A stretch of DNA of 64,000 nucleotides from Aquabacterium lacunae (lineage in GTDB: Bacteria; Pseudomonadota; Gammaproteobacteria; Burkholderiales; Burkholderiaceae_C): NCBI RefSeq assembly GCF_004310865.1, contig NZ_SIXI01000005.1:62001-126000 (forward strand), written 5' to 3'. Made by a program: the position numbers and the translations under genes. Every line of letters begins with the position of its first letter. Position 1 is the stretch's first letter. The notes under the pieces are model-generated. The model was not told where the DNA came from and did not search any database. It saw only the letters and a program-made list of their open reading frames with translations. Shown here piece after piece: positions 28,804 to 31,415 of the stretch.

Positions 28804-29289
28804 ATGCCATCTGTCTACGAATTCGAAGCCCAGACCATCACCGGGCAGCCTGTGAAGCTTGCCGAGCACCGCGGCAAGGTGATCCTGATTGTCAACACGG
28901 CCAGCAAGTGCGGTTTCACGCCGCAGTTCGAGGGCCTGGAAAAACTGTGGCAGGCCTACAAGGACCGTGGCCTGGTGGTGCTGGGTTTTCCCTGCAACCA
29001 GTTCGGTGGCCAGGACCCGGGGGCCAACAGCGAGATCGCCTCGTTCTGTCAGCTGAACTATGGTGTCAGCTTCCCCATGATGGCGAAGATCGACGTGAAC
29101 GGCCCGCAGGCCCACCCGCTGTACCAGCACCTGGTGCAGGAGGCGCCAGGCCTGCTGGGCACCAAGGCCATCAAGTGGAACTTCACCAAGTTCCTGATCG
29201 CGAAAGACGGGCGTGTGCTGGGCCGCTACGCCCCGGTCGACTCGCCCAAGGGGCTGGCGGCCGACATCGAAAAGGCCCTGGCGGCTTGA
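28804..29289 (+). CDS. Cytosolic glutathione peroxidase
   Basis: The 161-residue protein without signal peptide has the full catalytic set: NTASKCGFT with C36, [12 protein letters not shown] and [10 protein letters not shown]. It reduces hydroperoxides, probably with thioredoxin or glutathione. It is divergent from the CheB-CheR gene (83 bases between starts). The ATG at 28804 was preferred to a TTG four codons upstream. It is a shorter paralogue of the exported enzyme at 3029-3619. Confidence 0.93.
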
Positions 29290-29331: not shown

Positions 29332-29772
29332 TCATGCCGCATCGTCATGGTTGAACGGATCGGCCACGCGCCGGTACAGCGCGCTGGCGGCCAGGTCGTT
29401 CGTGACCACCTGCGGACATCGCAGGCAGCCTGACACGCCCTCCTGCGCCCACCACTGGCACTGCGCCCGGATGGCGCAGCGCGGGGGCTTGTGAACCGCC
29501 ACCGGAGCCAGACGCACGGTGCGGATGGCCAGCCGGCAGGCCGAGCGGGCCTCGTCGAAATGCCAGCAGTCAGGGCCTTGTGCACAGGCTCCTGACAGCC
29601 GGAACACCTCGGTGGGCAAGGCCGGGGCCACCGAAGCCACCAGCTCGGCGCTCAGGGGCACGGCCTGGTCCAGGTACTGCACTTCGGGCATGGCGGGGCT
29701 GCCGCCAATGACGGCAAACACCTGCGCGTCGGCCGCATTGGCCGGTGCGCTGGGGCACAGGGTGGGCGTCAT
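29332..29772 (-). CDS. Cys-rich protein of unknown function beside a double-glycine peptide
   Basis: The 146-residue protein has seven cysteines in its second half (C63, C69, C79, C99, C105, C116, C119) and one near the start. They are arranged as two similar blocks: C-x5-CWHFD...C, and C-x5-CQWWAQEG...C-x2-CPQVVT. The spacing suggests metal or Fe-S binding. I recall similar unnamed proteins in other proteobacteria but know no function. It starts 14 bases after the small peptide gene on the same strand with GGGAG upstream, so the two are almost certainly co-transcribed. A role in modifying or handling the peptide is inference. Confidence 0.7.
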   Translation of the reverse strand: MTPTLCPSAPANAADAQVFAVIGGSPAMPEVQYLDQAVPLSAELVASVAPALPTEVFRLSGACAQGPDCWHFDEARSACRLAIRTVRLAPVAVHKPPRCAIRAQCQWWAQEGVSGCLRCPQVVTNDLAASALYRRVADPFNHDDAA

Positions 29773-29786
29773 GGCGGCGCTCCCGG

Positions 29787-30056
29787 TCAGCGGGCGATGC
29801 CCGTGTTGATCAGCACTGCGGGGTTGATCTGCTGCTGCAGGCCGCCCAGCACGTTCGGGTTGATCTTGCCCCAGGGGAAGTAGTTGGGGTCGATCTTGTA
29901 GCGCAGCGCCTCGTTGTAGGCGAGGGCGCCGCCGCTGACCTGCTGTGCAGCATCGGCCGGCAGTTCACGGGCTTGCAGGGCGCGGGTGGCACCAGCGGCG
30001 GCCAGTGCGGCGATGTCGGTGTGGCAGGCCTGAGCGGCGCGGAGGTTCTGGGTCAT
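29787..30056 (-). CDS. Small peptide with double-glycine-type leader, candidate RiPP precursor
   Basis: The 89-residue protein has a helical N-terminal part (1-43) ending in ELPADAAQQVSGG, the classic leader pattern of double-glycine peptides cleaved by C39-type peptidases (GG at 42-43). The 46-residue remainder is rich in Asn, Pro, Tyr and Ile (KIDPNYFPW, KINPNVLGG, QQINPAVLIN) and has no Cys. It is therefore not a typical lanthipeptide or disulfide bacteriocin. The ATG at 30056 has AAGGA six bases upstream; an ATG 13 codons earlier is less likely. No ABC/C39 transporter or known modification enzyme is adjacent. Precursor status is inference from the leader pattern. Confidence 0.6.
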   Translation of the reverse strand: MTQNLRAAQACHTDIAALAAAGATRALQARELPADAAQQVSGGALAYNEALRYKIDPNYFPWGKINPNVLGGLQQQINPAVLINTGIAR

Positions 30057-30153
30057 GGTGTGTCCTTTGAGAAATGGGTTGGAAGGTGTCGGCACCGACC
30101 TCCGGTGTCGACCCGATGAACTCTAGGAACACGCCCGCTGCGCCACATCCTGC

Positions 30154-30175
30154 GAACTAGGGCCCCCCCTAGTTC
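30154..30175. promoter_or_regulatory. Perfect palindrome GAACTAGGG-N4-CCCTAGTTC, candidate operator
   Basis: Nine-base perfect arms around CCCC lie between the divergent peptide gene and tyrB. The right arm falls about where the -35 of a tyrB promoter with -10 TATCAT (30191-30196) would be. A dimeric regulator site is the simplest reading; which regulator binds is unknown. Confidence 0.55.
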
Positions 30176-30221
30176 AAGCTGGGGGCCCCTTATCATCTCG
30201 GCTCGCACGAAGGAGAGCCCC

Positions 30222-31415
30222 ATGTTCCAGCACGTTGACGCCTACCCTGGCGACCCCATCCTCACCCTCAATGAGGATTTCCAGAAAGACCCGCGCACGG
30301 GCAAGATCAACCTGAGCATCGGCATCTACTTCGACAACGAAGGCCGCCTGCCCGTGATGCAGGCCGTGCGCGAGGCCGAAGGCAGCCTGCTGCAGCGCAT
30401 CGGCCCCAAGCCCTACCTGCCCATGACGGGCAACCCGGCCTACCGCCAGGCCGTGCAGGAGCTGCTGTTCGGTGCCGACCACGAAGCCGTGACCAGCGGC
30501 CGCATCGCCACCATCCAGACGCTGGGTGGCTCGGGCGGCCTGAAGGTCGGGGCCGATTTCCTCAAGCGCTACTTCCCCGCCTCGCAGGTGTGGGTGAGCG
30601 ACCCCACCTGGGACAACCACCGCGCCATGTTCGAAGGCGCGGGCTTCCAGGTGAACACCTACCCCTATTACGACCCGGCCACCAAGGGCCTGCGCTTTGA
30701 CGCCATGCTGGCGGCCATCGACGCCTTGCCGGCGCAGAGCATCGTGCTGCTGCACGCCTGCTGCCACAACCCCACCGGCGTGGACCTGAACGAAGCGCAG
30801 TGGACGCAACTGATCGAGGTGCTCAAGGCACGCCAGCTGCTGCCTTACCTCGACATTGCCTACCAGGGCTTTGGCGACGGCATCGACGAAGACGCCTTCG
30901 CGCTGCGCGCACTGGCTTCGGCCGGCGTGAGCTTCTTCGTGGCCAATTCGTTTTCCAAGAGCTTCTCCTTGTATGGCGAACGCGTGGGCGGCCTCAGCGT
31001 CGTCTGCCCGGACAAGGCACAAGCTCAGCTGGTGATCGGTCAGCTGATGTCGGCGGTGCGCCGCAACTACTCCAGCCCGCCCACCCACGGCAGCCAGATC
31101 GTGGCCCAGGTGCTGCAGACCCCAGCCCTGCGCCAGCTGTGGGCCGATGAACTGGCCGCCATGCGCGAGCGCATCAAGCAGATGCGCCAGCGCCTGTACG
31201 ACGGCGTGGTGGCCCAGTTGCCGGGCCGCGATGTGCGCTACTTCATCGACCAGCGCGGCATGTTCAGCTACACGGGCGTGAGCCCCGAGCAGGCCGAGGC
31301 CCTGCGCGAGCAGCACGGGGTGTACGTGCTGCTCTCGGGCCGCATGTGCGCCGCGGGCCTGAACGCCAACAACGTCGACCGCGTGGCCGAGGCCTTCGCG
31401 GCCGTGCTGCGCTGA
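30222..31415 (+). CDS. tyrB: Aromatic amino acid aminotransferase (class I)
   Basis: The 397-residue PLP enzyme of the AspC/TyrB family has the cofactor Lys K246 in [15 protein letters not shown] and the PLP-contact motif [11 protein letters not shown]. The substrate Arg lies near the C-terminus in [11 protein letters not shown]. It starts [20 protein letters not shown], the usual AAT opening. It transfers amino groups between aromatic (or aspartate) and 2-oxo acids in Tyr/Phe metabolism. AGGAG lies 6 bases before the ATG. It is divergent from the small peptide gene and shares the palindrome at 30154-30175. Confidence 0.92.

Follow-up and report, generated by a model that had tools for sequence, protein, structure and literature searches.

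A double-glycine peptide gene and its cysteine-rich partner in Aquabacterium lacunae: a candidate accessory cassette for a C39-exported peptide

Double-glycine (GG) peptides exported by C39 transporters include bacteriocins and class II microcins, and groups of them have been described in cyanobacteria (PMC3140520). In the main text of that paper the word "cysteine" occurs 0 times, and its relevant passages mention no Cys-rich protein of the kind considered here; such a protein may be among its unnamed adjacent ORFs. In spliceotide systems, PlpX and PlpY act on Tyr-Gly sites, as described in portions of PMC11002830 and PMC10533398. In the cyanobacterial loci examined here, GG peptides and Nif11 precursors are alike in having short cores rich in Pro, Ile and Gly. 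We take PlpX to be linked to the model TIGR04103. The Cys-rich protein reported below is undescribed in the titles or abstract openings of the open-access papers listed for splicease/spliceotide/nif11, double-glycine, RiPP, radical-SAM, HopA1/lanthipeptide and microcin topics.

We analyzed a stretch of 64,000 nucleotides from the A. lacunae genome (G000:C55:62001-126000), referred to here as the window; the genome assembly has 3.9 Mb in 64 contigs. The window contains a gene for a GG-leader peptide followed by a gene for a Cys-rich protein, hereafter the partner, with these features:

29332..29772, minus strand: Cys-rich partner gene, 146 aa plus stop, eight Cys (ORF and aligned homologues)
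29780..29784, minus strand: Shine-Dalgarno-like GGGAG 5' of the partner gene (read from the sequence)
29787..30056, minus strand: GG-leader precursor peptide gene, 89 aa plus stop (ORF; related leader in the orthologues of three congeners; homologues in other phyla)
29790..29927, minus strand: peptide core, residues 44-89, Asn/Pro-rich, no Cys (alignment with congeners)
29928..30056, minus strand: peptide leader, residues 1-43, ending VSGG, the predicted C39 cleavage site (sequence)
30063..30068, minus strand: Shine-Dalgarno-like AAAGGA 5' of the peptide gene (read from the sequence)
30140..30189, no strand assigned: cassette-specific block upstream of the pair, in the interval that ends at the aminotransferase gene; conserved in all four carriers of the close pair
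30154-30175: perfect palindrome GAACTAGGG...CCCTAGTTC in the window's upstream block

Relatives of this two-gene cassette range from cyanobacteria to proteobacteria. On balance we lean towards reading the pair as an accessory cassette in which a metal-bearing partner would prepare a GG precursor, and a C39 transporter encoded elsewhere in the genome would export the core.

The peptide and its partner

A preliminary description, made from the letters of the window, had reported a peptide of 89 residues whose leader ends in QQVSGG and whose tail is Cys-free, followed 14 bases later by a 146-residue protein with seven Cys. Both genes are confirmed, the peptide on the minus strand at 30056-29787 with residues 44-89 as its core, and the partner on the same strand at 29772-29332, the gap of 14 bases being 29773-29786. 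The partner has eight Cys rather than seven, at positions 6, 63, 69, 79, 99, 105, 116 and 119, the eighth lying in an N-terminal L-C-P-S motif. The array of C-x5-C(W/Q) type that had been noticed is present as C63-x5-C69-W and C99-x5-C105-Q.

The QQVSGG ending of the window leader, with similar leaders in congeners and relatives, corresponds to the leaders of C39-processed peptides, in which GG or GA comes after a short helical segment; in one congener (L113) the leader ends in VSGA, not VSGG. The sole Cys of the window peptide, C11, is in the leader. Within the core, the stretch PWGKINPNVL aligns with INGKINPEII of the congeners, and Tyr-Gly (the Xaa-Tyr-Gly site) is absent. Both Shine-Dalgarno-like sites are suitably placed for their genes, and the AAAGGA before the peptide gene is found in all four aligned carriers, window included. 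Against NCBIfam and Pfam the window peptide matched no family at E <= 10, and so no curated GG-bacteriocin model; nor did it match the NHLP model TIGR03793 or the Nif11 models. The anti-phage defence models of PADLOC matched neither the peptide, nor the partner, nor one cyanobacterial partner.

All eight Cys of the partner, together with R58, R102, W107 and G112, are invariant in 56 of 56 aligned partners from five phyla and one phage-labelled record, and the eight Cys are again invariant in 50 of 50 in a second alignment; the 56 and later 50 sequences come from about 90, with near-duplicates left out. The L-C-P-S motif that includes C6 is likewise invariant among aligned relatives. The Cys appear to form two sets, C63, C69 and C79 with probably C6, and C99, C105, C116 and C119, and the partner is most likely a soluble cytosolic protein that would hold metal, as Fe-S or Zn. 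Searches of Pfam, NCBIfam and PADLOC gave no significant match for it. We dismissed weak matches to PF12190 (window partner, E 0.11), PF00423 (E 0.0099, one of 50 members) and phrog_16378 (E 0.007, one cyanobacterial partner). The AlphaFold model of the partner is confident, yet no PDB fold matches it, so the partner has no catalytic precedent.

The pair within the genus

The pair is flanked by a gene at about 28804-29289, which we take to be glutathione-peroxidase-like, and one at 30222-31415, presumably aromatic-aminotransferase-like. The partner is present in 6 of 42 genomes of the genus: the window genome, G638, G643 and G672 carry close orthologues, and G666 and G671 a distant form. In G638, G643 and G672 the position of the pair is identical to that in the window. 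Nine sites in the genus could be compared; at four, the pair occupies a peroxidase-aminotransferase gap of 936-1062 bases, and at five empty sites (L146, L147, L152, L155 and L156) the two flanking genes are 24-89 bases apart. The comparison covers 30 of 37 peroxidase matches, the 30 that were fetched, and 21 of these have no aminotransferase gene within the 3-kb span and are uninformative. Because each of the nine sites has both genes of the pair or neither, the two genes come or go together.

Among the three congeners, identity is 90-94% for the partner, 92-100% for the leader and 51-74% for the core; between the congeners and the window copy, the corresponding values are 61-62%, 47-53% and 30-41%. 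One pair of cores differs by 3 synonymous and 8 non-synonymous codon changes, and the leaders by 2/0, 4/3 and 6/3. A stable leader and partner beside a changing core would be expected of a precursor with a shared maturation route, not of a core-specific immunity protein. The distant partner of G666 and G671 (L115 and L116) follows a different small protein, of 93-98 residues and without a GG leader, and adjoins a gene that by eye is acetyl-CoA acetyltransferase-like.

The upstream block is probably a promoter or operator; inspection by eye of the five empty sites, whose intergenic stretches are short, did not show it. The perfect palindrome is unique to the window copy among the carriers. No palindrome regulon was found, since the window genome has the exact palindrome once and a relaxed pattern yields one further weak site, not exceeding the control. 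Near the pair there was no sigma-70 promoter-like site, no terminator-like site and no Rfam match.

Relatives and their gene neighbors

A survey of the neighborhoods of Cys-rich homologues for GG peptides, as the preliminary description had proposed, found that the two co-occur: 73 of 94 loci have a GG-leader ORF a short way upstream of the partner, compared with 66 of 689 control genes from the same loci, which were unmatched for type and lie in some cases within peptide clusters. Under the survey rule, an ORF had to start with ATG, encode 45-200 residues on the same strand, end at most 600 bases upstream and carry a GG, GA or GS leader motif. Among these 94 are the window and two copies from genome G521; L008 and L041, which nearly duplicate L015 and L038, were excluded. 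The relatives had been found with a five-sequence alignment, of whose 128 matches the best 80 were kept, and the search motif favored cyanobacteria. A scan of genome contigs with exact patterns of the window partner alone found no relative because the exact stretches are too specific.

By eye, the rule gave false positives in at least L010, L013 and L085, and missed an upstream GG peptide in L028, L036, L053, L075 and L020; in L018 the GG peptide is about 1 kb upstream, and in L059, L071 and L073 it is downstream. The partner stands beside a small non-GG protein in L043, L011, L014, L079, L115, L116, L009 and L030. Homologues with no peptide neighbor, the case that had been named as speaking against the pairing, form a minority of about six loci in which no convincing peptide was seen by eye (L046, L082, L085, L091, L092 and L013), to which the few with a non-GG small neighbor may be added. 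Given the same placement in three congeners and homologous pairs in several phyla, the pair is not a chance arrangement. Its partner family is sporadic, being clear in 1 of 249 other genomes of the taxonomic family, 1 of 398 others in a sample of the order and 0 of 368 others in a sample of the class, where not every candidate was scored. Two candidate carriers from the family search, G050 and G139, were dismissed as weak (E about 3e-4 to 5e-4); the G139 match contains two stops.

The cores are very different, yet often contain a short hydrophobic-x-Gly-x-hydrophobic stretch, such as KPIIPPIIIGLIAVDP and PIIVGLIA in cyanobacteria, GIIAGGIRPDIL in gammaproteobacteria, and the INGKINPEII and PWGKINPNVL of the congeners and the window. 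The motif fits 57 of 73 cores compared with 24.9% of shuffled cores, a count that is only descriptive because the motif was picked after the peptides had been inspected.

Several loci have features of their own. In L021-L025, L039, L040, L047 and L076 another GG peptide, with a leader of the same family, lies just downstream of the partner, and several of these second peptides have cores ending with a GGYLLG-type stretch. On two Streptomyces plasmids (L009:8690-8923 and L010:8712-8960) the gene before the partner encodes a small protein that seems to have a signal peptide, carries a C-terminal Cys and lacks a GG leader. An 11.3-kb record labelled "unverified bacteriophage" (L014, MT836289.1) has a partner homologue and looks bacterial, with an ABC transporter, a response regulator and a histidine kinase recognized by eye.

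That neither a modifying enzyme nor a C39 transporter adjoins the pair, as the preliminary description had stated, is true by eye, but the genome does encode a C39 exporter at another place. Of the three C39-like matches in the window genome, the one on contig C64, and thus on another contig than the pair, is a full transporter with an ECGLAC motif (E 1.2e-34 to PF03412). It is 43-46% identical to the transporters of the gammaproteobacterial loci L086, L087 and L089, where two GG peptides, the partner, HlyD and a C39 peptidase ABC transporter are consecutive and no further enzyme was seen among them (exporter genes named by cluster and motif). In Spirosoma (L012) the pair adjoins annotated NHLP exporters, and G133 and G521 each have a C39 transporter too. 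Seven of the eight partner-bearing genomes searched, two of which have the distant partner, contain this C39 transporter at E <= 1e-100; the remaining genome has a completeness of 53%. The presence of the transporter is unspecific, because 26 of the 42 genus genomes have it (28 of all 44 searched), among them 21 of the 36 that lack the partner; being common in partner-less genomes, it must have other substrates too. Judged from the genes present, export of the window peptide in trans by the C39 transporter of contig C64 is plausible.

Contig C64 also has a short Cys/Pro-rich peptide ORF with a LTPFEATRVTGA leader (L106:6562-6825, plus strand) about 3 kb before the C39 transporter, which may be that transporter's own substrate. 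Of the 49 loci whose flanks reach 9 kb each way, 13, including L013, have no gene of the HlyD, ABC/C39 or radical-SAM clusters. These neighbor families are BLAST clusters; exporters were named by the L012 annotation and motif, and the radical-SAM, HopA1, kinase and PpiC clusters by a library search of one or two members each.

In L008 and L015-L020 the same partner family is paired with an NHLP-type leader, as a match to TIGR03793 indicates for L008, which is nearly identical to L015, and sequence likeness by eye for L015-L020. The partners of these seven loci have an N-terminal extension of 99-160 residues, compared with no more than 54 in the 84 further loci for which it was measured. Since the long extension is confined to the NHLP-leader loci, the partner changes with leader type, which would favor recognition of the leader by the partner. 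By eye, the extensions have a leader-like helix (RAIEAR ... GGW) and a GGW motif. The idea of a leader fused to the partner was rejected: the best of six extensions, set against 1000 shuffles, gave a non-significant E of 0.33, three others fell among the shuffles, the hhalign probability was 2%, and the AlphaFold model of the extension was poor (pLDDT 37.9).

Of the 61 cyanobacterial loci that extend 5 kb or more downstream, 30 contain a radical-SAM gene that clusters with TIGR04103 (splicease-type) members; two of the encoded proteins, those of L083 and L008, were compared with TIGR04103 itself, and both pass its cut-off. No such gene was found in the other 31 cyanobacterial loci or in 15 of 16 non-cyanobacterial loci, some of these stretches being short, and the pair therefore looks like a module of its own. 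Many of the 30 loci contain Nif11-type precursors with LYG/MYG core sites, and many cyanobacterial radical-SAM loci have a protein with a HopA1 domain (PF17914, from a scan of one member) and a kinase that resembles LxmK distantly, scoring under the model cut-off. In L083, L021, L062 and other cyanobacterial loci, all four adjoin, so that splicing and dehydration machinery stand together. Beside the window pair there is no TIGR04103 radical-SAM enzyme, and by eye no RiPP modifying enzyme is among the ORFs between 22 and 38 kb of the window. The window genome has 13 radical-SAM matches; the best of the eight compared is 27% identical to splicease over about 190 residues.

Other loci deserve mention. 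The sole non-cyanobacterial locus of the 16 with a TIGR04103-cluster gene is acidobacterial (L079:10460-11334), and has four tandem peptides of 63-71 residues and a radical-SAM gene downstream of the pair; three of the four are of YGPPIQEAIAKGD type, which we take to be GDL-motif peptides. On a Polymorphobacter plasmid (L013:9733-10947, minus strand), an annotated radical-SAM gene of a cluster other than the TIGR04103 type lies about 400 bases beyond a distant partner without a convincing peptide. Tyr-Gly-like cores occur in G133 (L002:1981-2235, KYGVWPDP) and at L094:3652-3900 (IIYGG), with no splicease seen adjoining by eye.

Readings of the partner and comparison with known systems

Most likely, we believe, the partner is a cytosolic metal-cluster factor that would prepare a C39-exported peptide. 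The first gene would give a precursor with a C39-type leader, which the partner may bind in the cytosol through the conserved leader; the metal-bearing Cys sets may then help to modify the core or join in its maturation, and a C39 transporter encoded elsewhere would cut after Gly43 and export the core. Counting against this reading are the absence of a fold match, the unspecific presence of the transporter, the 13 of 49 loci with neither exporter nor radical-SAM cluster genes, the relatives whose partner has a non-GG neighbor or no peptide neighbor, and the sporadic distribution of the family. A stronger version, which we consider possible but doubtful, is that the partner is a new peptide-modifying enzyme of 130-150 residues with two four-Cys metal clusters, alone modifying the core near a hydrophobic-x-Gly-x-Ile stretch, in an unrecognized RiPP class that would span at least five phyla and often be merged with cyanobacterial splicease-type clusters. 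The earlier suggestion of a RiPP-like locus holds in part: a GG precursor with a dedicated Cys-rich partner stands, and no class-defining modifying enzyme was seen by eye in the cluster.

The gene order of L086, L087 and L089 (peptide, peptide, small protein, HlyD, C39 ABC), which we take to resemble that of class II microcin or two-peptide bacteriocin operons, invites another reading, in which the peptide is an unmodified, class II microcin-like bacteriocin and the partner its immunity protein; that the two genes are either both there or both missing at each of the nine sites would fit this as well. The partner, however, does not track the core, staying 90-94% identical where the cores of the congeners are 51-74% identical, its eight Cys stay invariant from phylum to phylum, inspection by eye shows no obvious transmembrane stretch in it, and it varies with leader type, as the extension in the seven NHLP-leader loci indicates. 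We regard this reading as unlikely, and an immunity role as less likely than that of an enzyme or escort. An escort in the strict sense, a Zn-bound chaperone that keeps a hydrophobic precursor soluble and delivers it unchanged to the transporter, would suit a small protein with no catalytic fold match and the hydrophobic, Ile/Pro-rich cores of the cyanobacterial peptides. The invariant Arg and Trp amid the Cys sets exceed what a scaffold needs, a weak objection, and the frequent radical-SAM RiPP neighbors in cyanobacteria fit maturation at least as well; we think it improbable that the partner does nothing else.

The pair might also be an accessory of splicease (spliceotide) systems, with the window copy a remnant from which the rest has been lost, as the TIGR04103-cluster genes of about half the cyanobacterial loci (30 of 61) could suggest. 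Set against this are the 31 cyanobacterial loci without such a gene, the single case (L079) among 16 non-cyanobacterial loci, several with short flanks, the window core without a Tyr-Gly site, and a genome in which none of the eight radical-SAM matches compared, of 13, is splicease-like beyond the 27% given above. We consider a remnant of this kind highly improbable.

A metal-cluster factor that prepares an exported peptide is the reading that we retain as most likely. The family, with eight invariant Cys, is present in many cyanobacteria and scattered other phyla beside GG peptides, and is unrecognized by Pfam, NCBIfam, PADLOC and PDB folds. A modifying role would make the partner a very small new RiPP enzyme, and an escorting or protecting role would make it a dedicated accessory of a new kind. 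In both cases it offers a specific handle on peptide products that have been overlooked, and the five-gene cassettes of gammaproteobacteria are compact enough for transfer to a laboratory strain and testing.

Among RiPP precursors with NHLP or Nif11 leaders, the subgroup formed by L008 and L015-L020 uses an NHLP-type leader, whereas the window peptide fits neither model. The cyanobacterial pair is often in the same locus as a spliceotide (PlpX/PlpY) system, whereas the window pair has no such adjoining enzyme and its core lacks Tyr-Gly; the partner corresponds neither to PlpX, a radical-SAM protein, nor to PlpY, which recognizes the leader, in the form that the relevant portions of PMC11002830 describe. 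With the C39-exported double-glycine peptides, including the cyanobacterial groups as presented in the main text of PMC3140520, the pair shares the GG leader and the short, variable core. It also shares their HlyD and C39 exporter, which adjoins the pair in some relatives and lies elsewhere, not adjacent, in the window genome, and it differs from them in having a conserved Cys-rich partner.
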